NCBI RefSeq assembly: GCF_002119765.1
Contig: NZ_CP021112.1
Span: 1,172,501 to 1,236,500 of the forward strand
Direction of reading: 5' to 3'
Source: Pseudorhodoplanes sinuspersici
GTDB lineage: Bacteria; Pseudomonadota; Alphaproteobacteria; Rhizobiales; Xanthobacteraceae
DNA: 64,000 nt
In this document: positions 14,855 to 30,179 of the stretch, in pieces
How positions within the stretch are numbered: the first letter of the stretch is position 1
Layout: each line of letters begins with the position of its first letter
The notes under the pieces: model-generated
Database searches by the model: none
The model's input: only the letters and a program-made list of their open reading frames with translations
What the model was told of the DNA's origin: nothing
Position numbers and translations under genes: made by a program

Positions 14855-16051
14855 ATGGCCGATCGCAAAATCCGTCTCGGAATTGCCGGTCTCGGGCGCG
14901 CCTTCACCTTGATGCTGCCGACCTTTACGGCTGATCCGCGGATTGAACTTGTTGCCGCGAGCGATCTGCGGGACGACGCGCGCAAACAATTCGAAAACGA
15001 ATTTGGCGCGCGCAGTTACGGCGCGATCGAAGACTTGTGCCGCGATCCCGATGTGGACGCGGTGTATGTCGCCACACCGCATCAGATGCATGCGCAGCAT
15101 GTGGCCATCGCCGCGCGACACGGCAAACATGTTCTGGTCGAGAAGCCGATGGCCATCGCCCTCGATCAATGCCAGGCGATGATCGATGCCGCAAAAAAGG
15201 CCGGCGTAATCCTTGTCATCGGTCACAGCCACAGCTTCAACGCGCCGATCCTGCATACGCGCGCACTGATCGACAGCGGCGCCTATGGTGCCGTCCGCAT
15301 GATCCATGCGCTGAATTACACCGACTACATGGTGCGCCCGCGCCGGCCGGAGGAGATGGATACGGCGCAGGGCGGCGGCGTTTTGTTCAGCCAGGGCGCG
15401 CATCAGATCGATATCGTGCGGCTGCTCGGCGGCGGGCAAGTGCGCTCGGTGCGCGCGTTGACCGGGAACTGGGACCGATCGCGCCCGACCGAGGGCGCCT
15501 ATTCGGCGCTGCTCACATTCGATGACGGCGCCTTCGCCTCCTGCACCTATAGCGGCTATGCGCATTTCGATTCCGACGAGTTTATGGGCTGGATCGGCGA
15601 AATGGGTTTGCGCAAGGATCCATCGCGTTATGGCGCTGGCCGCGCCGCCTTGCAGGCAGCAACGAATGCCGATGAGGAAGCGGCGCTGAAAGCTGAGCGC
15701 AATTATGGCGGCAAGAATTATGCGCCGTCGTCGCATGCCGTCTCGCCGGAGCGGCTGCATCAGCATTTCGGCACCATCATCGTCTCGTGCGAGCGCGCCG
15801 ACCTTCGCCCGATGGCGGGCGGCGTCATGATCTATGATGACAAGGAAGCCCGGCTCGATCCCGTGCCGGTGCCGAAGGTGCCGCGCGCCGAAGTGATCGA
15901 CGAATTCTACGACGCGATCGTTCATGGCAAGTCGCCGCTCCATGACGGCGCCTGGTCGATGGCGACACTCGAGGTGTGCCTTGCCATCCTGCAATCGGCG
16001 AAGACGCGGGCCGAGGTGCCGACAAAACATCCGATCGCGGTCCGGACATGA
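14855..16051 (+). CDS. Gfo/Idh/MocA oxidoreductase, phthalate dihydrodiol dehydrogenase-like
   Basis: A 398-residue NAD(P)-dependent dehydrogenase. The Rossmann start is LGIAGLGRAFTLML, followed by the family signature VLVEKPMAI with the EKP lysine, then an alpha/beta catalytic domain with NYTDYM, FSQGAHQIDIVR and the conserved His pair. In phthalate 4,5-pathway loci a dehydrogenase of this family and size (Pht4-like) re-aromatises the cis-dihydrodiol, which fits its position next to reductase and oxygenase genes. No 4,5-dihydroxyphthalate decarboxylase is seen in this window. Its stop overlaps the MarR start by 4 bp (ATGA). Confidence 0.82.
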   Translation: MADRKIRLGIAGLGRAFTLMLPTFTADPRIELVAASDLRDDARKQFENEFGARSYGAIEDLCRDPDVDAVYVATPHQMHAQHVAIAARHGKHVLVEKPMAIALDQCQAMIDAAKKAGVILVIGHSHSFNAPILHTRALIDSGAYGAVRMIHALNYTDYMVRPRRPEEMDTAQGGGVLFSQGAHQIDIVRLLGGGQVRSVRALTGNWDRSRPTEGAYSALLTFDDGAFASCTYSGYAHFDSDEFMGWIGEMGLRKDPSRYGAGRAALQAATNADEEAALKAERNYGGKNYAPSSHAVSPERLHQHFGTIIVSCERADLRPMAGGVMIYDDKEARLDPVPVPKVPRAEVIDEFYDAIVHGKSPLHDGAWSMATLEVCLAILQSAKTRAEVPTKHPIAVRT

Positions 16052-16659
16052 CAGAACGAAAGCCGGCCAAGAACAGGACAAAGAGCGCAACAACGAGCGG
16101 CACCGACGCGCAGACCATCCTTCGTCACTGGCGCGAGGCTGTGCCCGACGATCGTCTCGCCCACCTCGTCAAGGACGCTACACGCGCACTTCTACGAGCG
16201 TTACAGATGCGGCTGACCGCGCATAATGTCTCGCTCGGCCATTGGACCTTCCTGCGCATCCTCTGGGAAAAAGACGGCCTCACGCAACGAGAACTGAGCG
16301 AGCAAGCCGGCGTGATGGAGCCGACCACCTTCTCCGCCGTCAACGCGATGGAGAAGCTCGGCTATGTCGTTCGCCGGCAAATGCCCGACAGCCGCCGCAA
16401 GGTCTATGTGTACCTCACGCCGAAAGGCCGGTTATTAAAGGAAAAACTCGTGCCGCTGGCGGAAGACGTCAATCGCGTTGCGGTCGGCGACGTGGCGACC
16501 GAACACATCGCCATCACGCGGCAGACGCTGCTCACCATCCTGGAAAATCTTGCGCGCGACGAAATCGTCGCCAACGACCCGGAGCGCCGTATCCCCTCGA
16601 CCCGCGAACTCGCTTTGCGCGTTGCCGACAAGACAAGGCAAAGTCGTAAGCGGAGTTAA
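16048..16659 (+). CDS. MarR-family transcriptional regulator
   Basis: 203 residues. A Lys/Thr-rich N-terminal tail (about 1-25) precedes the winged helix-turn-helix: LTQRELSEQAGVMEPTTFSA and the wing VVRRQMPDSRRKVYVYLTPKG. The C-terminal tail is again basic (SRKRS). MarR proteins bind as dimers and usually release DNA on binding an aromatic ligand, so it is the likely local regulator of the oxygenase/reductase set. Translation is probably coupled to the dehydrogenase through the ATGA overlap. Confidence 0.88.
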   Translation: MTERKPAKNRTKSATTSGTDAQTILRHWREAVPDDRLAHLVKDATRALLRALQMRLTAHNVSLGHWTFLRILWEKDGLTQRELSEQAGVMEPTTFSAVNAMEKLGYVVRRQMPDSRRKVYVYLTPKGRLLKEKLVPLAEDVNRVAVGDVATEHIAITRQTLLTILENLARDEIVANDPERRIPSTRELALRVADKTRQSRKRS

Positions 16660-20267: not shown

Positions 20268-21287
20268 TCAATCGAGCTTCGGCGGAGTGATCGCCGGCAT
20301 CTTGACGGACTTGTCGAGGAATTCGTTGGTATAGGCCGACTTCACGTCATAGCCCTTTTCCATCTTCAGATATTCATCGACCAGCTTGTAATCGGCTTCC
20401 ATGCGTTTGTCGTCGTGCCAGCCAAGCGCAACATTGCGAGATGTGTCGTCACTCATCAACACCGTGACGAGTTGCCAATTCATCAGCTCATTGTTGTAAA
20501 GCAGCGCCCCGTTGGCCTCGACAAGCGCCTTGATGCAGGGCTCCGGATTCTTGGCGCAATCTGCGAACGCTTTCTGGGTAATCTTGACGAATTTTTCGGC
20601 TGTCGCCTTGTTCGCCTTCAGCCAGGGACCGTTGGCAATGATCGAGTTGCCGTAGGGATTCACGCCGGCGTCTTTCCAGGCCAGAAATCCCATGTCCTTG
20701 CCCAATTCCCGCGTGAACACATGATGCAGATTGTAAAATGACGTCGTTGCGTCGATGGTCTTGGCCTTCAGCGCCCCGAGCTTGGCATTTGCGTCGATAT
20801 TGACCCAGGTCACCGAAGCAGGATCAACACCGTTGGCCTTCGCAAGGGCGGGCCACATCGTGCGGGCGCCATCGCCGGCCGGATTGCCGATTTTCTTCCC
20901 GGCCAGATCCTTGACGGATTTGATACCGCTGCTGTTCAGCCAATAAAGCCCCTGCGGCGAATTGGCATAGACGTTCATGATGCCGACAAGATCGGCTCCC
21001 TTGCCGCGAAACAGCAGCACGCCAGCCATATCGGACAGCCCCAGTTGCGAGCTTCCGGCGCCGACCTTCTGCGCCGACGCTGCCGACCCGCGACCGGTCT
21101 CAATATCGAGGTCAATTCCGGCGTTTTTGTACAGACCCATCTTCTGGGCGTAGTAATAAGGCGCGTGGTCTCCGCCAGCCACCCAATTGAGCGTAAACGT
21201 CACCCTTTGATTTTGGGCCGCGGCGGGCGCTGCAGCAAGAAACACCGCGGTCATGGCCGCGAACCCGCATTTCCAGACAATGCTCAT
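20268..21287 (-). CDS. NitT/TauT-type ABC transporter substrate-binding protein
   Basis: About 339 residues with a Sec signal peptide (MSIVWKCGFAAMTAVFLAAA, cleavage near AAAQ). The mature N-terminus VTFTLNWVAGGDHAPYYYAQ and the motif YKNAGIDLDIETGRGS are typical of NMT1/THI5-like binding proteins of pyrimidine-precursor, nitrate, taurine or similar transporters. The permease and ATPase lie divergently at 22338-23875, with a TetR gene between. The ATG at 21287 has GGGAGG 9 nt upstream; a longer frame adds 32 unlikely residues. A TetR-type palindrome is centred about 47 bp upstream. Confidence 0.88.
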   Translation of the reverse strand: MSIVWKCGFAAMTAVFLAAAPAAAQNQRVTFTLNWVAGGDHAPYYYAQKMGLYKNAGIDLDIETGRGSAASAQKVGAGSSQLGLSDMAGVLLFRGKGADLVGIMNVYANSPQGLYWLNSSGIKSVKDLAGKKIGNPAGDGARTMWPALAKANGVDPASVTWVNIDANAKLGALKAKTIDATTSFYNLHHVFTRELGKDMGFLAWKDAGVNPYGNSIIANGPWLKANKATAEKFVKITQKAFADCAKNPEPCIKALVEANGALLYNNELMNWQLVTVLMSDDTSRNVALGWHDDKRMEADYKLVDEYLKMEKGYDVKSAYTNEFLDKSVKMPAITPPKLD

Positions 21288-21326
21288 CCTGTCCTCCCTG
21301 AAGTCACCGAACTTTCTTGTGTATTT

Positions 21327-21340
21327 TAACCGCACGGTTA
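21327..21340. promoter_or_regulatory. Palindromic operator between binding protein and TetR genes
   Basis: TAACCGCACGGTTA is a perfect inverted repeat (TAACCG/CGGTTA around CA) in the gap between two divergent starts (21287 and 21399). It shares the AACC-N4-GGTT pattern with sites at 22069 and 27949-27983. It is the likely binding site of the adjacent TetR protein. Confidence 0.75.
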
Positions 21341-21398
21341 ACTTGCCAAAACGATAGGATTGCGTCTGATAGCTGTCAATCACCGCTTTTGCCCCCGA

Positions 21399-22043
21399 AT
21401 GGCCAAATCCGCGACCCGCTCCCGTCTACCGACCCGCGACGCCATCCTCGCTGCCGCGCAGTACGAATTCGCCGCAAAGGGATTATCCGGCGCCCGCGTC
21501 AATGCGATCTCGAGCCGCGCTCGCGCCAACAAGCGATTGATCTATTATTATTTCGGCAGCAAGGAGGGCCTGTATCTGGCGGTTCTCGAGCGGACCTATG
21601 AAGGCCTCCGCGGCGCCGAGCGTAAACTCAACCTCGATCATCTTGAACCCGAAACCGCAATCCGAAGGCTGATCGAATTCAATTTTGAATACTGCCGCAA
21701 ACACCCCGAACTCATCAGCCTGATCAACAACGAAAACCTGCATCAGGCAAAGCACCTGCGGAAATCGACCAAAGTGCGCGAACTGCACAGCCCGTTCGTC
21801 CGGATGATCGATGAAATTCTCAAACGCGGCGTCAGCAAAGGTGTGTTCCGGCCGGGGCTGGACCCCGTCGACGTCTACATCACCATTGCCTCAATCGGTT
21901 ATTTCTACCTGGCGAACAACTGGACCCTGTCAGCGATCTTTGCGCGCGATCTCGGCGCTCGCGCAGCTCTCGAACGACGTAAAAAACACAACATCGATAT
22001 GATGCTTCATGCTTTGCGCGCGAAAGCGCCGCGCGCGCGTTGA
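21399..22043 (+). CDS. TetR-family regulator (RutR/YcdC-like), regulator 1
   Basis: 214 residues. The N-terminal helix-turn-helix (about 10-58) contains TRDAILAAAQYEFAAKGLSG and the recognition-helix segment ANKRLIYYYFGSKEGLYLAV. The C-terminal ligand domain (about 80-205) has EYCRKHPELISLINNENLHQ and a YITIASIGYFYLANNWTLSA segment, reminiscent of the RutR/YcdC C-terminal family. It is clearly paralogous to the TetR at 29192. It sits between transporter halves and near-identical operator palindromes, so it probably controls uptake genes. The ATG at 21399 is chosen because family similarity starts here. Confidence 0.9.
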   Translation: MAKSATRSRLPTRDAILAAAQYEFAAKGLSGARVNAISSRARANKRLIYYYFGSKEGLYLAVLERTYEGLRGAERKLNLDHLEPETAIRRLIEFNFEYCRKHPELISLINNENLHQAKHLRKSTKVRELHSPFVRMIDEILKRGVSKGVFRPGLDPVDVYITIASIGYFYLANNWTLSAIFARDLGARAALERRKKHNIDMMLHALRAKAPRAR

Positions 22044-22068
22044 CAGCGGCTTGCAAACCGGCACAATG

Positions 22069-22082
22069 TAACCGTTTGGTTA
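22069..22082. promoter_or_regulatory. Second TetR-type palindrome, upstream of the permease gene
   Basis: TAACCGTTTGGTTA (AACC-N4-GGTT) lies 26 bp after the TetR stop and 256 bp before the permease start. A weaker match, CGGCCGTACGGTTG, lies at 22286-22299, 39 bp before the permease start, and matches the 27949 site at 11 of 14 bases. The 294-base gap 22044-22337 holds nothing else I recognise. Confidence 0.6.
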
Positions 22083-22337
22083 CCACGTGGTGCAATCGAC
22101 ATGGATTCACGCTGCAACGGCTGGCCCATAACTGCGCGGCAAATCTTGCTTGATGGTGCCGTGGTTGCGGCGCGGCCCGAGTTTATCCGCGGGAGTTTAT
22201 GGAAGCGCCGTGCGGCCAATCGTGGTCAGTGGCTGTCATGACAGGCGAGGCTGCGACCCTGTACAGTCTGGCATCTGATCGCGCCCGGCCGTACGGTTGC
22301 CGGCGCTTCCAATCGCTTCATCGATAGTGGGGACCCG

Positions 22338-23102
22338 GTGGACAACACGCGAAATTCCATTCAGCGCTACTCGATTGCCGTCTTCAGCCATCTGATGCTG
22401 GTGGTCGCGTGGCATTTCTTTGTCGTGCTGGGCAACGTGCCGAAATTTGTAATGCCCTCGCCTTATGCCACCCTGCAGGCATTGCTCGTTCCCAATTACC
22501 GCTGGATGGAAAACATCACTGTCACCAGCATCGAGATTTTCGGCGGATACCTTCTGGCCGTTGTTGGTGGAATTGGCATTGCGCTGATGTTTTCCTGGTT
22601 CCGCACGCTCGAAATGATCGTGATGCCGCTGCTGGTCAGTCTGAACATGATTCCGAAGGTCGCGCTGGGCCCTCTCATCCTGGTCTGGTTCAGTTACGGC
22701 ATTGTCCCCAACATCGCGATGGCCTTCGCCATCTGTTTCTTCCCGATTGTGCTGACGACGGCGCGCGGTTTGCGCGAAGTGGAGCCTGACCTTCTTGACC
22801 TCGTCCGCTCGGTGAAGGGCTCGCGCTGGCAATTGTTCACGAAAATCCAGTTGCCCGGTGCCCTTCCCTATATTTTCTCCGGCATGAAGGTTGCCGCTAT
22901 CCTGGCGGTAGCGGGCGCGATCGTCGGCGAATTCCTCGGCTCAGATCGAGGTCTTGGTTATCTCATGCTGCAAGTCCAGGTGACACTCGACACCGCCGCG
23001 ATGTTCATGGCCGTCATTCTCATCACGCTGATCGGAATGGTGCTGTATGGTATCGTGCTCGGTCTTGAGAAGCTGCTGGTCGTACGGGACGCACGGATAT
23101 AG
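22338..23102 (+). CDS. NitT/TauT-type ABC transporter permease
   Basis: A 254-residue inner-membrane protein with about six hydrophobic helices of the SsuC/TauC family. The N-terminal part contains VMPSPYATLQALL. The coupling loop reads DLVRSVKGSRWQLFTKIQLP and is followed by GALPYIFSGMKVA and IVGEFLGSDRGLGYLM, the family's conserved end. The start is a GTG at 22338 preceded by GGGGA. It is followed 8 bp later by the ATPase. With the binding protein at 20268 it makes a complete importer. Confidence 0.92.
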   Translation: MDNTRNSIQRYSIAVFSHLMLVVAWHFFVVLGNVPKFVMPSPYATLQALLVPNYRWMENITVTSIEIFGGYLLAVVGGIGIALMFSWFRTLEMIVMPLLVSLNMIPKVALGPLILVWFSYGIVPNIAMAFAICFFPIVLTTARGLREVEPDLLDLVRSVKGSRWQLFTKIQLPGALPYIFSGMKVAAILAVAGAIVGEFLGSDRGLGYLMLQVQVTLDTAAMFMAVILITLIGMVLYGIVLGLEKLLVVRDARI

Positions 23103-23110
23103 AGGCGCGC

Positions 23111-23875
23111 ATGTCTGACCCCTTTATCCGCCTTGTCGGCGTCCAAAAGACCTACCGAACGCGAGGGACCGAGTTTCCCGCCGTCTCCGAAGCGACGTTC
23201 AACGTTGAACAAGGCGAGCTTGTTTCTCTGGTTGGTCCATCCGGATGCGGTAAAACGACATTGCTCAAGATCATTGCCGGACTGCATTCGCACAATGCCG
23301 GCGAGGTCAAGATCGGCAATGCCAGCCAGCCTTTCGATGCGTCACGAGACGTCGGCATGGTGTTTCAGCAGCCGCTTCTGCTGAAGTGGCGCCGCATCAT
23401 CGACAATGTTCTGTTGCCTGCGGAGATTCTCGGTCTGCCACTTGCCGCCAGCCGCGACCGCGCGCGTGATCTGCTCAAACTTGTCGGCCTGTCCGGCTCC
23501 GAAGACAAATACCCTTATGAATTGTCGGGAGGCATGCAGCAGCGTGCGTCGATCGCACGCGCGCTGGTGCACGATCCGAAATTGATCCTGATGGACGAGC
23601 CGTTCGGCGCCCTCGATGCGTTGACTCGCGAGAAGATGAATCTGGAGTTGCTGCGCATCTGGCAGGAATCGGGCAAAACGATCCTGTTTGTAACGCACGG
23701 GATCACGGAAGCGGTGTTCCTCGGAACGCGCGTCATCGTGCTGACTGCGGGGCCGGCGCGCATGGCCGACAACTTCTTGGTCGAGCTGCCGCATCCGCGC
23801 ACGCTCGACATGAAGACGCACGAAAAATTCGGAGATTATACGCGGCGCATTTATCACCTCCTCGGCATGCACTGA
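23111..23875 (+). CDS. NitT/TauT-type ABC transporter ATP-binding protein
   Basis: A 254-residue ABC ATPase with Walker A GPSGCGKTT, Q-loop MVFQQPLLLKWR, signature LSGGMQQR, Walker B LILMDEPFGALD and the switch His in VTHGITEAVFL. It pairs with the permease directly upstream. It ends close to the convergent epimerase gene (60-bp gap). Confidence 0.94.
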   Translation: MSDPFIRLVGVQKTYRTRGTEFPAVSEATFNVEQGELVSLVGPSGCGKTTLLKIIAGLHSHNAGEVKIGNASQPFDASRDVGMVFQQPLLLKWRRIIDNVLLPAEILGLPLAASRDRARDLLKLVGLSGSEDKYPYELSGGMQQRASIARALVHDPKLILMDEPFGALDALTREKMNLELLRIWQESGKTILFVTHGITEAVFLGTRVIVLTAGPARMADNFLVELPHPRTLDMKTHEKFGDYTRRIYHLLGMH

Positions 23876-23935
23876 TGCGGGCGACAACTCTGCGCTGACG
23901 CGAAGATTGGCCCGCCACCAATGCTGCCGTAGAGG

Positions 23936-25042
23936 TCAATACGTTCCTGAGCGCACTTCGAAATGCGTAGCCTTGCCGAAACTGCCCATATCCCTGGCCA
24001 GCCAGTCCGCGGTCCAGTCAATCATCCTCTCGAGCGGAACGTCCGGATAACCGAACAGGCCTTCGGCCAAACTGGTATCGGCAATCCATGCGGTCGGCGC
24101 TTCTTCACCCCGCAGGATCGGCGCCTTGTCGAACCGGCGGCCGAATGCCAGCGCCAGCGCACGAATGCTCAGGGTCTCCGGTCCTGTGATGTTGAAGGGG
24201 GCCGTCGGAACCTGGCCGTGACGGAAAGTGCGAAGTGACTGGCTGCAGGCATCTCCCTGCCAGATGACGTTGACATGCCCCATGGAGAGATCGATCGGCT
24301 CGCCGCGAAGGACTTTCGTGCCGAGATCGTGCAGCACGCCGTAACGCATGTCGATCGCGTAGCTCAACCGGATGATCGAGCCGGGGGATTGGTGCTGGCG
24401 TGAAAAGTGCTGGAAGATGCGCTCCCGGCCGACGCACGACATCGCATATTCGCCCGGAGGGCCGAGTTCGTCGGTTTCGCGCGAACCGCCGTGCAGAACA
24501 GGTGCAAACGGATAGACACAGATGGTCGAGAAGACGACGAATCTGCTGCCGGCGAAATGATCGGCGATGAGCCCCGGCACGTAAACGTTCATGGCCCAAG
24601 TCAGGTCTTCACCACCTGTCGACCCGAACTTGCGGCCGGCCATGAACACGATGTTCTTGACCTTCGGCAGCGACGCAATGTCCGCCGGCTTCAGCAGATC
24701 CGCGGAAATGGTCTCAATTCCATGCGCCTCGAGATAACGCTTGACCTCAGGATCGCTGAAACGCGCCACGCCAATGACACGGCGATCTGGAACCGCGCGC
24801 TTTGCCATCCGCGCCAATGTCGGGCCCATCTTTCCCGCCACGCCAATGATCATGATGTCGCCATCGACCGCCTGCAGGTCGGCGATCAAGGCAGCCGATG
24901 GCCGCGACAAGAACTCATCGAGCATTTCGACATTATCGAAACGCACTGGCTGCCCGTCAGGCCGTGATGCAGCACCATATTGGCTGTGGCTTGGCGGCTT
25001 TGCGGCGGCCACGTCCGACGATTTCGGCTTCTGACTGGTCAT
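23936..25042 (-). CDS. NAD(P)-dependent epimerase/dehydratase-like protein
   Basis: About 368 residues. After a low-complexity N-terminal stretch of roughly 60 residues there is a Rossmann segment, IMIIGVAGKMGPTLARMA (G-x2-G-x2-G type), followed by IVFMAGRKFGSTGG and FVVFSTICVYPFAP, then a C-terminal substrate domain with FNITGPETLS. This is the extended SDR pattern. The canonical YxxxK is replaced here by a YAMSCVGRERIF stretch, so catalysis may be altered. It is last in the minus-strand set CrtI-like / Fe-ADH / epimerase. I chose the ATG at 25042. Confidence 0.78.
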   Translation of the reverse strand: MTSQKPKSSDVAAAKPPSHSQYGAASRPDGQPVRFDNVEMLDEFLSRPSAALIADLQAVDGDIMIIGVAGKMGPTLARMAKRAVPDRRVIGVARFSDPEVKRYLEAHGIETISADLLKPADIASLPKVKNIVFMAGRKFGSTGGEDLTWAMNVYVPGLIADHFAGSRFVVFSTICVYPFAPVLHGGSRETDELGPPGEYAMSCVGRERIFQHFSRQHQSPGSIIRLSYAIDMRYGVLHDLGTKVLRGEPIDLSMGHVNVIWQGDACSQSLRTFRHGQVPTAPFNITGPETLSIRALALAFGRRFDKAPILRGEEAPTAWIADTSLAEGLFGYPDVPLERMIDWTADWLARDMGSFGKATHFEVRSGTY

Positions 25043-25110
25043 TTCCGGGCGTCTCCCTGTTCCGGCATCAGTAACGTCACGACCTCGCAACAGCAACGAA
25101 CATTGCAGGG

Positions 25111-26259
25111 TCAAGAATTGTGGGGCGGTTCGAAACTCTCTTCGAGCATTGAAAGAAAATCGGCTTCCGTTACAGGCCGCGGATTGGTCTGCGTGCTGAC
25201 ATCGGCGAGTGCCATGCGAGCCATATGCGGCAGGACTGACCGTGGGACGCTCATGTCACGCAGAGAGAGCGGCAAATTGAGCCGACGGTTCAGCGCGGCA
25301 AACCAACGCGCGATGTCCTCGTGCGCGCCCAAGCCGAGCGCCTGACGTATGCGCCCATATTTGCCGCCGGCACTTGGCGCGTTGTAGCGCAACACCGCAG
25401 GCAGCAAGACAGCATTCAGCGTCCCGTGATGCAGAATTGGCGCTTGCAGTGTTCCCAAAGCATGGCTGAGAGCGTGCACCGCGCCGAGACCCTTCTGGAA
25501 TGCGAGGCCACCCTCCAGCGAGGCCATCATCATCTGCCAGCGCGCGTCGATATTGGCGCCATCCTCACATGCCGTTTCGATGAAGGCCGCTGCACGCGCC
25601 AATCCATCCAGCGCGATGGCCTCCGCTGGCGGATTGATCCGCGGCGAAAGCAGAGTTTCAACACAATGGGCAATGGCATCCATCCCGGTACCGGCCGTCA
25701 CCGCGGCGGGCAGCCCCAATGTGAGAAGAGGATCGCAAATCGCGGCTTTAGGAACGAGATGCGGGCTGATGATGGCCCTCTTCCATCCATCGCTCATGAC
25801 AATGACGGCGGCTCGCCCCACTTCGCTCCCGGTTCCGGACGTCGTCGGCACGGCGATCACCGGCGCAACGGCGGATGTAATACGCTCCATCCCTCCCCGA
25901 CTTGCCGCATAATGGAACAGGTCACCTTCATGCGTCGCCTTGAGCGCAACCGCTTTAGCGAGATCGATGGGCGATCCGCCCCCGAAGGCTACAATGCCAT
26001 CGCAACCCGCCTCGCGATATTGATGCACCGCCGCGTCGACAGCTGCTTCCGTCGGGTTGGGCGGCGTCTCAATAAAAAGGTGAGAATCCGGAATTGTCCC
26101 GATCGCATCACTCAGTCGCTCCATAAGACCTGCACTGACAATACCGCGGTCGGTTGCGATCATCGGCCGAATTATGCCCAGCGTCTGTAACTGGCCGGCA
26201 AGCTCGCGCAGCGCTCCGTTCTCGAACAGCACTGTTGTCAGAAAGGAGATGACTGCCAT
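25111..26259 (-). CDS. Iron-containing alcohol dehydrogenase
   Basis: A 382-residue type III (group III) alcohol dehydrogenase. The NAD-binding segment is VAFGGGSPIDLAKA, followed by VPTTSGTGSEVGRAAVI. Metal-ligand regions are GTGMDAIAHCVE, GAVHALSHALG and PILHHGTLNA, which supply the expected Asp and three His. Substrate is an alcohol or semialdehyde of the local pathway, not identifiable from sequence. It starts 13 bp after the stop of the upstream oxidoreductase, so they are likely co-transcribed. A GTG one codon earlier is possible. Confidence 0.9.
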   Translation of the reverse strand: MAVISFLTTVLFENGALRELAGQLQTLGIIRPMIATDRGIVSAGLMERLSDAIGTIPDSHLFIETPPNPTEAAVDAAVHQYREAGCDGIVAFGGGSPIDLAKAVALKATHEGDLFHYAASRGGMERITSAVAPVIAVPTTSGTGSEVGRAAVIVMSDGWKRAIISPHLVPKAAICDPLLTLGLPAAVTAGTGMDAIAHCVETLLSPRINPPAEAIALDGLARAAAFIETACEDGANIDARWQMMMASLEGGLAFQKGLGAVHALSHALGTLQAPILHHGTLNAVLLPAVLRYNAPSAGGKYGRIRQALGLGAHEDIARWFAALNRRLNLPLSLRDMSVPRSVLPHMARMALADVSTQTNPRPVTEADFLSMLEESFEPPHNS

Positions 26260-26272
26260 CACCAGTCGCTCG

Positions 26273-27880
26273 TCAAAGCGCCGACAGACGATCAGCGATC
26301 GAAGGCGGCATCCAATCCGCCTTGATCTTCATATCCGCGAGAATGACCTGGGCGGCATTGTAGCCCGGCAAGCCGGTAATATTCCCGCCGGGATGGCTGC
26401 TGGAGCCGCAAAGATACAGGCCCGGCAGGTGTCCACGATAATGGCCTGCACCGCGGAATGGACGATCATAGCCAATCTGACCGTTGGTGAACGCTCCGAT
26501 CAGCAGATCGCCCTCGCGCATATTCGGCAGACAGCGCTCGACATCAAGTGCCGAGCGGGTGAACGATCCCATGACTGCATCGGCTAAATTCGGTGCGTGC
26601 TTGGTCCACAGCGCCAGCATGTCGCGGCCGTGGTCTTCACGCACGACATCCCAATTCAGGGCATCGCCATGGAGGCGATACGGCAACTTCTCCCACATGA
26701 AGGCGGTATGCTTGCCCTCGGGGGCCTGGCCGGGATCGAACAATGTCGGACAGGCTCCCCACATCACCGTCGGCGGAATCGTGCCGGCTTCATGGTGGCG
26801 CACGATGTCCGGATATTGATCGACATGATCGAGGCCCATAATCACCATGAAGGCCTGCTCGAGTTCAGGACGTTGAGCCGCCAGCGTGTAGCGGGGCGCT
26901 TCTCTCAAATTAAGGTTCAGCCCGAACAGCGGCGCGATCAGATTATACTGGAAGCGTTCGGCTTTCTCGCGAAACGCAGGAGGCAATACATCGGGATCGA
27001 GGAGATCAAGGAATGTCTGATGTGGATTGAGCGAGGAGGCAACAAAATGCCGGGCACGGATCACCTCGCCCTCCTTCGTCTCGATACCGACGGCCTTTCC
27101 TCCCTCGACGATGATCTTCTTCGGTTCCGTGAGAATGCGGATTGTTCCGCCCGCCTCATGCGCCGCGCTTTCGAGCGCGCGGGCCAACGCGGCCGTGCCG
27201 CCACGCGACATTTGCGCCTTGGCCGGGCTTGCGAGCAAAGCGGCGATGTGGTGGCCAAAGCCGCGAACCCGGAGGTCGACTTCGCGAAGGCCGTTGAAAA
27301 ACAGCAAGCCGGCCTGGATGACCGGATTTTCAAATTCCCGTCGAACGAATTCGAGTGGCGACAGCGCGCTGACCTCCAACAGACGGCGTCCAGCCGAGCT
27401 GCGCTGTAGCAAAACGCGCCGTTCCTCGGGCGGCAGCGGCGGAGACATCCCCTCCCAGACGAGGATGTTCTGCACGATGGACACGAACTCTTCGTGCCAG
27501 CGGACCAAGGTATCGGCATCGCGCTTGCTGAATTGTGCGAAAGAATCGACGGTCTTGCGGAAATCGGTCCACCATTCGAGCGCGCGGCCGTCATTGGTCA
27601 GCAGAACGACGTTCAGTTCCGGCTCAATATAGACGGCGCCGTGACGCTCGAGCTCAAGATCGCGATACCACGGCATCGTCGTAATCGCGCGCTGGAAGAA
27701 AGCATGCGTGTTGTGCATGAACCCCGGAAAGCGGGGGTCCTCCATCGTTGCCGCGCCACCGCCAGCAACCGCGCGGCGCTCCACCACGAGGACATCCAGC
27801 CCAGCCTTGGCGAGATAGGTCTGGAGGATAAGGCCATTGTGCCCCGCCCCCAGGATGATGCCATCGTAAACCCGGGTCAT
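26273..27880 (-). CDS. FAD-dependent oxidoreductase of the phytoene-desaturase (CrtI/COG1233) family
   Basis: 535 residues. The N-terminal dinucleotide motif is DGIILGAGHNGLILQTYLAK, followed by VVERRAVAGGGAATME. The C-terminal FAD segment is LYLCGSSSHPGGNITGLPGY. The middle carries a LRVRGFGHHIAALLASP stretch and GGTAALARALESAA. This group includes many non-carotenoid amine or alcohol oxidoreductases, and no carotenoid genes are nearby, so a catabolic role is more likely. It opens the minus-strand operon and is transcribed away from the aldolase at 28068 across two tandem TetR operators. Confidence 0.87.
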   Translation of the reverse strand: MTRVYDGIILGAGHNGLILQTYLAKAGLDVLVVERRAVAGGGAATMEDPRFPGFMHNTHAFFQRAITTMPWYRDLELERHGAVYIEPELNVVLLTNDGRALEWWTDFRKTVDSFAQFSKRDADTLVRWHEEFVSIVQNILVWEGMSPPLPPEERRVLLQRSSAGRRLLEVSALSPLEFVRREFENPVIQAGLLFFNGLREVDLRVRGFGHHIAALLASPAKAQMSRGGTAALARALESAAHEAGGTIRILTEPKKIIVEGGKAVGIETKEGEVIRARHFVASSLNPHQTFLDLLDPDVLPPAFREKAERFQYNLIAPLFGLNLNLREAPRYTLAAQRPELEQAFMVIMGLDHVDQYPDIVRHHEAGTIPPTVMWGACPTLFDPGQAPEGKHTAFMWEKLPYRLHGDALNWDVVREDHGRDMLALWTKHAPNLADAVMGSFTRSALDVERCLPNMREGDLLIGAFTNGQIGYDRPFRGAGHYRGHLPGLYLCGSSSHPGGNITGLPGYNAAQVILADMKIKADWMPPSIADRLSAL

Positions 27881-27948
27881 GCCGCACCCAACGCCGTCAT
27901 GGATTCAGGCCGTCTGTGGCAAGATTATCCGCCAGCATTTTTTCATGT

Positions 27949-27983
27949 CAACCATACGGTTGATATTTTCAACCATACGGTTG
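27949..27983. promoter_or_regulatory. Two tandem identical operator palindromes
   Basis: CAACCATACGGTTG occurs at 27949-27962 and again at 27970-27983, 21 bp centre to centre, that is two helical turns. Each is an inverted repeat, CAACC/GGTTG, with four central bases. They lie in the 187-bp gap between the divergent CrtI-like and DHDPS-like genes, 69-85 bp from each start, in position to control both. Confidence 0.85.
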
Positions 27984-28067: not shown

Positions 28068-29129
28068 ATGAATCTTTCGGTCGCGGATCTGCCTGCGGAC
28101 ATCAGAAGATTGATCAGGGGCGGGCAAGCCATCCCGGCGCATCCGCTGGCTCTGACGGCCGCGCGCAAACTCGACCCGCGGCGACAACGCGCCTTGACGC
28201 GATATTATATCGATGCTGGCGCCGGCGGCCTCGCTGTCGGTGTCCACACCACCCAATTCGCCATTCGCGAAGCCGGTCTTTATCGGCCAGTGCTGGAACT
28301 TGCGCGCCAATCGGCAGAAGCCTGGAGCGATCGTCCGTTGGTGATGATTGCCGGTCTGGCGGGATCGACCGGGCAGGCCACGCGTGAAGCCGAAATCGCG
28401 GTGGGGCTCGGTTATCACGCCGGCCTTCTCAGTGTCGCCGCATTGCGCAATGCATCGGAAGACGAACTGATCGATCATTGCAAGCGCGTCGCCGAGAAAA
28501 TCCCGCTATTTGGCTTCTATCTGCAAACAGCCGTCGGCGGCATTCCGCTATCGGAAAACTTCTGGCGGCGTTTTTCGCAAATCGAGAATGTCGTCGGCAT
28601 CAAGATCGCGCCGTTCGACCGCTATCGCACACTGGATGTGGTCCGCGGTGTCGTCGCCGCTGGCGCCGAAGAACGGGTCACGCTGTATACCGGCAACGAT
28701 GATCATATCGTTCTTGATCTGCTGACGCCGTTCGTTGCCAGACGGGATGATCGCGATGTGACCGTTCGCATCCGCGGCGGCTTGCTTGGGCACTGGAGCG
28801 TTTGGACGAAGGCGGCAGTGGATGTGTTCGAGCGCTGCAGACGCGCCGTCGAGACGGGATCTATCCCGTCCGAATTACTCGCTCTCGATTCGAAAATCAC
28901 CGCCTGCAATCAGGCCGTCTTTGATGTTGCGAATAATTTTCACGGCGTGATCGCCGGCTGCCATGAAGTGCTCCGACGGCAAGGGCTGCTTGAGGGCATA
29001 TGGTGCCTCGATCCGAATGAAACACTGGGACGCGGACAAGCCGATGAGATCTCGCGCGTGAGCCGCGCCTATCCGGAACTGACCGACGACGCCTTTGTGG
29101 CCGCGAACCTCGAGCGCTGGCTTGACTAG
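28068..29129 (+). CDS. Dihydrodipicolinate synthase/N-acetylneuraminate lyase family protein
   Basis: About 353 residues in a TIM-barrel class I aldolase pattern. GGLAVGVHTTQFAI stands in the position of the substrate-binding turn, FYLQTAVGG supplies a tyrosine, and VVGIKIAPFDR supplies the Schiff-base lysine. It is longer than typical DapA (about 290), with a C-terminal extension after residue 290. It is unlikely to be biosynthetic DapA given the cluster. The ATG at 28068 has AGGTGAG 4 nt upstream; a GTG three codons earlier overlaps that ribosome site. It is followed by the TetR gene on the same strand. Confidence 0.8.
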   Translation: MNLSVADLPADIRRLIRGGQAIPAHPLALTAARKLDPRRQRALTRYYIDAGAGGLAVGVHTTQFAIREAGLYRPVLELARQSAEAWSDRPLVMIAGLAGSTGQATREAEIAVGLGYHAGLLSVAALRNASEDELIDHCKRVAEKIPLFGFYLQTAVGGIPLSENFWRRFSQIENVVGIKIAPFDRYRTLDVVRGVVAAGAEERVTLYTGNDDHIVLDLLTPFVARRDDRDVTVRIRGGLLGHWSVWTKAAVDVFERCRRAVETGSIPSELLALDSKITACNQAVFDVANNFHGVIAGCHEVLRRQGLLEGIWCLDPNETLGRGQADEISRVSRAYPELTDDAFVAANLERWLD

Positions 29130-29191: not shown

Positions 29192-29917
29192 ATGAAGGCT
29201 GCAAAAAAACGCAAAACCAGCAAGCGTACTGGTGCGAGCCGTAAAGCGAAAGCCACCCGCAGGTCCGCAGCGGCCGCGAAATCCAGTGAGGATTCCACAT
29301 CCCGGAAAATCCTGCTCGAGGTTGCCAAGAAGGAATTCGCGCGGAGCGGCCTGCATGGCAGCCGCGTCGACAAGATCGCCAAGACGGCGAAGATCAACAA
29401 GCAACTGATCTATTATTATTTTGGCGCCAAGGAAAATCTCTATCTCGCTGTTCTTGAGGGTGTCTATCGCGACATCCGCGCCCATGAGCACGCGTTGGAT
29501 CTCCGCACGCTCGAGCCAATGGCCGCCATGCGAAAATTGATCGGCTTCACGTTCGACTATGTCATGGAGAACCGGGATTTTGTGCTGTTGCTGACCAACG
29601 AAAATCTGATGGAGGCTCGACATCTCAAGCGATCCAAGATCATCAAGGCAACACATTCCCCGATCGTGGATCTGCTGGCCGACACGCTCAGGCGCGGAGA
29701 AAAGGCGAACCTGTTTTGCTCAGGCATCGATCCCGTTCAGCTTTACATTTCGCTGGCTGGATTATGCTTCTTCTACAGCGCCAATATTCACACGCTGGGA
29801 ATTCTGTTCGACCGCGATCTTCGAAGCCATGACGCCGTCAGTGAGCGACGTCTTCACGTGATCGATTTCGTGATCGGCTATCTCACCAAAGCTCCGACCA
29901 CAAAACAGCGCGTATAG
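29192..29917 (+). CDS. TetR-family regulator (RutR/YcdC-like), regulator 2
   Basis: 241 residues. An unusual Lys/Arg/Ala/Ser-rich N-terminal tail of about 35 residues is followed by a helix-turn-helix with FARSGLHGSRVDKIAKTAKI and NKQLIYYYFGAKENLYLAV. The C-terminal domain has LLTNENLMEARHLKRSKIIK and a YISLAGLCFFYSANIHTLGI stretch. Side by side it matches the TetR at 21399 over most of its length. It is downstream of the DHDPS-family gene and is the best candidate to bind the tandem operators at 27949-27983. Confidence 0.9.
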   Translation: MKAAKKRKTSKRTGASRKAKATRRSAAAAKSSEDSTSRKILLEVAKKEFARSGLHGSRVDKIAKTAKINKQLIYYYFGAKENLYLAVLEGVYRDIRAHEHALDLRTLEPMAAMRKLIGFTFDYVMENRDFVLLLTNENLMEARHLKRSKIIKATHSPIVDLLADTLRRGEKANLFCSGIDPVQLYISLAGLCFFYSANIHTLGILFDRDLRSHDAVSERRLHVIDFVIGYLTKAPTTKQRV

Positions 29918-30102: not shown

Positions 30103-30179
30103 TGGCGCGCCGGAAGGGATTCGAACCCCTGACCCCCAGATTCGAAGTCTGGTGCTCTATCCAGCTGAGCTACCGGCGC
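30103..30179 (-). tRNA. tRNA-Arg(UCG)
   Basis: A complete cloverleaf on the minus strand. Acceptor GCGCCGG/CCGGCGC; D arm GCTC...GAGC; anticodon stem CCAGA/TCTGG with loop CTTCGAA, giving anticodon TCG, which reads CGA; T loop TTCGAAT; and an encoded CCA end (30103-30105). Length is 77 nt. No integrase gene or duplicated 3' end is seen nearby. Confidence 0.95.

Follow-up and report, generated by a model that had tools for sequence, protein, structure and literature searches.

We analysed a 64-kb stretch of the Pseudorhodoplanes sinuspersici genome (5.97 Mb, single contig; the whole stretch is called the window hereafter) that contains two genes for TetR-family regulators, tetR1 and tetR2, embedded in one gene cluster together with four palindromes of the form AACC-N4-GGTT. 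Comparison with related genomes makes it quite probable that these palindromes are the operators of the two regulators, which would be RutR-like repressors with a TetR_C_29 domain, that the outer base pair of the palindrome mainly separates them, and that two homologous pathway modules contributed to the cluster, making it a mosaic. The sites, their conservation, the partition of their outer bases and the mosaic origin are all apparent in the sequences compared. A TetR repressor with a palindromic operator is of a known and ordinary kind; the interesting part is a natural Arg/Gln pair of regulators with T:A and C:G operators in a single cluster.

Organization of the gene cluster

One half of the cluster is assigned to a TetR1-type module. 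A gene for an NMT1/THI5-like substrate-binding protein (SBP; 20268..21290, minus strand) and tetR1 (21399..22043, plus strand, ATG at 21399) are divergently oriented, and a predicted TetR1-type operator of the T..A class (21327..21340) lies between them. The predicted SBP promoter (TTGACA, 17, TATCGT; 21351..21379, minus strand; 10/12 matches) has its -10-like TATCGT 10 bp upstream of this operator. A second predicted T..A operator (22069..22082) follows tetR1, right behind the -10-like hexamer of a promoter-like sequence (TTGACA, 16, CACAAT; 22040..22067, plus strand) ahead of the genes for an ABC permease (22338..23102) and an ABC ATPase (23111..23875), both on the plus strand.

The other half is assigned to a TetR2-type module and comprises, on the minus strand, genes for an NAD-dependent epimerase/dehydratase-like protein (23936..25045), an iron-containing alcohol dehydrogenase resembling 4-hydroxybutyrate dehydrogenase (4HBDH; 25111..26262; NF058672, 530 bits at a cut-off of 500) and an FAD-dependent oxidoreductase of the amine oxidase/CrtI-like kind (FADox; 26273..27880), of which the next relative in the same genome is 37% identical. 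Upstream lie the predicted promoter of this operon (TTGACA, 16, GATAAT; 27924..27951, minus strand; 11/12 matches) and two predicted TetR2-type operators of the C..G class, the first at 27949..27962 and the second (27970..27983) an exact 17-bp copy of it, 21 bp on; the -35 element overlaps the outer arm of the first. On the plus strand, a gene for a DHDPS-family protein (28068..29129), single-copy in this genome at a threshold of E <= 1e-15, ends 62 bp before tetR2 (29192..29917), which is on the same strand. The protein-family assignments of the cluster genes are insufficient to fix the pathway substrate. The initial annotation had placed each TetR gene next to its own site or sites, which holds for tetR1, situated between its two sites, and does not for tetR2, which is 1.2 kb from the tandem pair with the DHDPS-like gene intervening.

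Just downstream of tetR2, the window carries a tRNA-Arg gene (tcg; 30103-30179, minus strand). Genes for tRNAs are a common integration point for mobile DNA.

Family and ancestry of the two regulators

Both proteins carry an N-terminal TetR_N domain (PF00440; 46 and 44.9 bits, the cut-off being 24) and a C-terminal TetR_C_29 domain (PF17938; 151.4 and 129.2 bits against a gathering cut-off of 26.2). The TetR-family trait of a palindromic operator near the own gene or operon is seen at the sequence level as well, with the sites of TetR2 located 1.2 kb off, before DHDPS-tetR2. Their best NCBIfam match is RutR of Escherichia coli, a TetR-family regulator of pyrimidine use with 26% identity to TetR1; the scores of 59.8 and 50.3 bits stay far below the cut-off of 368 for the RutR equivalog (TIGR03613), the TetR_C_29 domain sets both proteins apart from RutR, and no rut genes were present in the examined part of the window.

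TetR1 and TetR2 align over 213 columns with 44% identity, in line with the initial description of two proteins alignable through most of their length. That description had also proposed a duplicated regulator within the cluster, and a recent local duplication has to be rejected: TetR1 shares more identity with a different paralogue in this genome (53-54%) than with TetR2, and TetR1 and TetR2 are not mutual nearest relatives in either of two trees. The careful tree places them in different groups and an earlier quick tree puts the TetR1 group between two groups with the NKQ helix of TetR2, so that the exact branching is unsure, although neither has them as sisters. By these comparisons, TetR1 and TetR2 are old paralogues.

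Palindromic sites in the window and in the genome

The four exact matches to AACC-N4-GGTT in the window, against an expectation of 0.50, all fall inside 21,328–27,982 and are the sites of the initial annotation; none of 100 shuffles reached four. They read TAACCGCACGGTTA at 21327, TAACCGTTTGGTTA at 22069 and CAACCATACGGTTG at both 27949 and 27970. When one mismatch is allowed, the number of matches (17, mean 13.5) is at chance level. When 39 sites were placed at random in the genome, 8 of 20,000 trials brought four of them within 6.66 kb; taking the tandem as one site (three of 38) raised this to 593 of 20,000, and the clustering alone is therefore only moderately surprising.

Genome-wide, neither the bare core (39 occurrences, 40 for the reversed control) nor YAACC-N4-GGTTR (15, control 13) nor DTAACY-N4-RGTTAH (7, control 6) is enriched, while TCAACY-N4-RGTTGR, the 16-bp form of the TetR2 sites, occurs at three places in the 5.97 Mb, two of which are the tandem (control 1). 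The initial annotation had expected such sites to concentrate in this region rather than to be scattered randomly over the genome. The bare core does behave as random, and this does not sink the finding because the evidence consists in conservation beside orthologous genes. Judged from the window by itself the case is moderate, and it is the relatives that make it strong.

Conservation and enrichment beside related tetR genes

Orthologues of TetR1 (at least 70% identity) were found in 6 of 61 genomes, the window's own genome counted. In all six, one site precedes tetR1 and a second lies 26-37 bp past its stop codon; the outer T and A are kept and the central four bases vary, with the upstream site reading AACT for AACC in two of the six. 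Gene order in the five relatives is SBP gene, site, tetR1, site, DHDPS gene, permease gene and ATPase gene. Alignments show TTGACA-17-TATCGT ahead of the SBP gene in 6/6 genomes, closely followed by the operator on the downstream side. The site downstream of tetR1 is preceded by an invariant TTGACAG in 6/6, the full promoter pattern passing the scan in 3/6. That the four sites are chance palindromes in AT-richer intergenic DNA is hardly credible in view of arms that are kept around a drifting centre at six of six orthologous loci and of an enrichment confined to the vicinity of tetR genes, even if the lack of genome-wide enrichment of the bare core and the 593 of 20,000 trials with the tandem as one site would suit such an origin.

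The family-wide test set comprised 128 distinct related TetR genes. AACC-N4-GGTT occurs 28 times in 76,625 bases of their flanks and 16 times in 1,198,226 bases farther off, a 27-fold difference, and sites of this strict form accompany 23 of the 128 genes. Five rearranged cores gave zero or one near occurrence each (0 to 2.2-fold). Among the other spacings tried (0-3 and 5-10), spacing 0 stands out, spacing 7 gave three near and no far occurrences, and the rest gave zero or one near. The way in which the sites follow tetR genes across genomes supports an operator family with a common core that belongs to these TetRs. We regard it as very improbable that the sites serve another regulator of the neighbourhood, such as the product of a MarR gene (16045-16659), or are sigma-factor or structural elements: no point in support was found, the MarR gene being 4.7 kb off, and the sites accompany TetR_C_29 genes in genomes with different surroundings.

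Outer base pair and recognition helix

The flanks of the TetR genes were searched with AAC[C/T]-N4-[A/G]GTT, leaving the outer bases unconstrained, and the genes were grouped by a tripeptide of the recognition helix, which is NKR in TetR1 (residues 44-46) and NKQ in TetR2 (residues 69-71). Sites were present at 37 of 113 NKR genes, where all 53 are T..A, and at 30 of 40 NKQ genes, where 55 of 56 are C..G and one is T..G; counted as different 16-mers, these are 38/38 T..A and 17/18 C..G. More than 1 kb from any TetR gene in the same loci, the 39 sites comprise 15 T..A, 8 C..G and 16 other ones. Thus, the shared core with diverged outer bases that had been noted for the four sites extends to the family, where the outer base tracks the regulator subfamily.

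This partition bears on the cross-talk suggested earlier, in which each of the two repressors would have comparable affinity for all four sites, resulting in a single regulon, joint or hierarchical. The common AACC-N4-GGTT core, the 44% identity of the proteins and recognition helices that are near-identical save for position 46-47 would favour it. A partition of 53/53 and 55/56, kept also in the relative G007 that holds both regulators, is unexpected if both read both classes and points to separate regulons instead, which leaves cross-talk unlikely.

Which residue would read the outer pair was approached by ranking alignment columns, with classes set by the operator and not by the residue. 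The class is fully captured by each of columns 46, 73 and 99, with 46 being the sole one inside the helix-turn-helix, where column 15 comes next at 0.94. Position 46 adjoins K45, which aligns with K52 of RutR, a residue of alpha3 modelled to contact a guanine in the passages available from PMC10891134. These alignments suggest that residue 46 may read the outer base pair. There is a sizeable chance, somewhat below even, that the pair is instead read by other residues, by DNA shape or by the N-terminal arm, R46/Q46 being a mere clade marker; columns 73 and 99 (0.99) and 15 (0.94) track the class too and NKQ is close to one clade, against which stand the position of residue 46 in the recognition helix beside K45 and a parallel in TetR itself. 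We take R46 to align with P39 of TetR. In the available part of PMC6515661, the exchanges V36F, E37A and P39K make TetR read tetO-4C5G, showing that this region of the helix can set and switch operator bases. As in that system, a recognition-helix exchange would make two sibling repressors read different operators; unlike here, where the change is natural and correlated only, the tetO-4C5G TetR as described there is engineered, with three residues exchanged and another operator position concerned.

As a pattern the link between R/Q and outer base is strong, as an independent statistic it is weak, and it need not be causal. In the careful tree (44 rows), 13 of 14 NKQ rows group together (support 86/88), with two helix changes and one operator change; the quick tree (75 rows) needs three helix and two operator changes, with one independent pair on firm branches. 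Both trees left out the paralogues with other helices and the NKR genes without a site. Searching 397, 296 and 398 genomes (overlapping sets) for NKQ helices gained few lineages and did not establish independence of the link. No site accompanied the eleven paralogue genes with the helices NRR, NQA, NMR, SKN, NDR and NVQ, and one SKR gene showed two sites, both G..A.

Several observations weigh against an assignment of the palindromes to the two regulators by way of the outer pair. With one or two operator changes, two or three helix changes and a single independent pair, the residue-base link is not statistically independent, and two columns beyond the helix-turn-helix, 73 and 99, follow the class no less well than column 46. 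The searched flanks of 76 of the 113 NKR and 10 of the 40 NKQ genes contain no such site. Two further NKQ loci, with regulator genes falling outside the main clades, are mixed: G473 has a T..G site near and, at a distance of 1.6-2.3 kb, a C..G site together with a mixed one; the sites of G618 are T..G, A..G and C..G. A 19-fold enrichment in the vicinity of tetR genes (12 near, 10 far) is seen for the spacer-free core AACCGGTT as well. Finally, the window lacks a second C..G site after the TTGACA on the DHDPS side, unlike the relatives G182 and G007.

The spacer-free AACCGGTT recurs, in the context GCAACCGGTTTG, 67-73 bp before Bradyrhizobium tetR genes (L102, L107, L115, L119, L129, L131, L143). 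At L105, L106, L115 and other Bradyrhizobium-type loci, NKRMLYYHVGNK TetRs are mostly without an exact site, and many NKRMLYYHVGNK TetR loci share ttATCCAACGGGTTaa 44-245 bp after tetR, perhaps a degenerate T..A operator.

Comparison with other operators

The E. coli rutA-rutR intergenic region holds GACTAAACGGTC, which we take to be the RutR box. It has the form GACY-N4-RGTC, by eye resembling AACY-N4-RGTT, and both may follow an xACY-N4-RGTx layout with x being G in E. coli and A here; exact ACC-N4-GGT is absent from the E. coli stretch. Our search of the open-access literature found no operator of the AACC-N4-GGTT form and none for the TetR_C_29 (PF17938) family; the one paper in this search to name PF17938, PMC11358695, showed no operator in its retrieved passages. 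The retrieved parts of two other papers describe motifs that change with the taxon for RutR and further Proteobacteria regulons (PMC5343134) and a residue-base correlation in the MerR family (PMC5045206). Here, as in those partly retrieved accounts, operator bases drift with the regulator subfamily, with the difference that both variants occur in one cluster of one genome.

Mosaic origin of the cluster

In trees, the SBP, permease, ATPase and GNAT proteins of the window group with TetR1-type modules, and the DHDPS protein (support 97, with the copy from the TetR2 module of G182) and the epimerase (support 100, with the copies from the TetR2 modules of G007 and G182) group with TetR2-type ones. 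FADox does so weakly (support 53), its closest relative, at 81% identity, being that of the G182 TetR2 module. G182 has the ATPase, permease, epimerase, 4HBDH and FADox genes on one strand of a single cluster and the DHDPS gene and tetR2 on the opposite strand. Two C..G sites lie between these gene sets and a third before an SBP gene. At the NKQ loci of G031 and G123, SBP, permease, epimerase, GNAT, DHDPS and ATPase genes surround the NKQ regulator with C..G sites, and G007 has the two modules next to each other. The simplest reading of these relationships is that two homologous modules met and that each then lost a complementary half.

G007 also has a second FAD oxidoreductase (34% identical) with an own C..G site upstream (L067 16174-17813), an extra predicted TetR2 target.

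Proposed regulation

Binding, repression, ligand response and insulation are what we infer from this arrangement. TetR1 would bind TAAC[C/T]-N4-[G/A]GTTA on both sides of its own gene and repress the SBP and permease-ATPase genes, where an operator behind the -10 element would cover the start region. TetR2 would bind TCAACC-N4-GGTTGA in tandem, 21 bp apart, and repress the FADox-4HBDH-epimerase operon; such binding would block the FADox -35 element because this overlaps the outer arm of operator 27949. A distance of 21 bp corresponds to two helical turns, so two dimers on the tandem copies would share one DNA face. The DHDPS-tetR2 operon is probably repressed by TetR2 as well, which would put TetR2 under its own tandem sites if, as is probable, it is co-transcribed with the DHDPS gene. 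Release of each repressor would depend on a small ligand from the pathway. In the mosaic, the genome has retained the TetR1-type module's transporter along with enzymes from the TetR2-type module, and uptake and breakdown would answer to two sibling repressors; the control of transport and catabolism proposed initially fits the gene layout in this split form. More tentatively, and with a likelihood that we put a little short of an even chance, one natural helix exchange (Arg/Gln at 46) resets the outer pair from T:A to C:G and insulates the siblings, letting two homologous modules fuse into one cluster with uptake and breakdown under different siblings.

If binding agrees, the two subfamilies would offer a natural pair with which to test specificity in the TetR family at the level of one residue and one base pair, and operators could be predicted for many TetR_C_29 regulators of Rhizobiales and Burkholderiales, a large group so far uncharacterised. 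The cluster also illustrates how a genome can splice transporter and enzyme genes taken from two homologous modules with both switches retained.

Among the seven places of DTAACY-N4-RGTTAH in the genome, two are in the cluster and one is beside another NKR TetR_C_29 gene; the remaining ones adjoin open reading frames (ORFs) without evident link. Two T..A-type sites 1.5 kb apart (L247 5383 and 6889; genome 2002382 and 2003888) have a GFO/IDH/MocA gene and a 458-aa ORF that matches no Pfam family in their vicinity, and no TetR_C_29 gene is listed there. At L072 5877-5892 (genome 3546876), a T..A site is situated between the other NKR TetR_C_29 gene and TctC/TctA transporter genes, which would be an independent example of the design.

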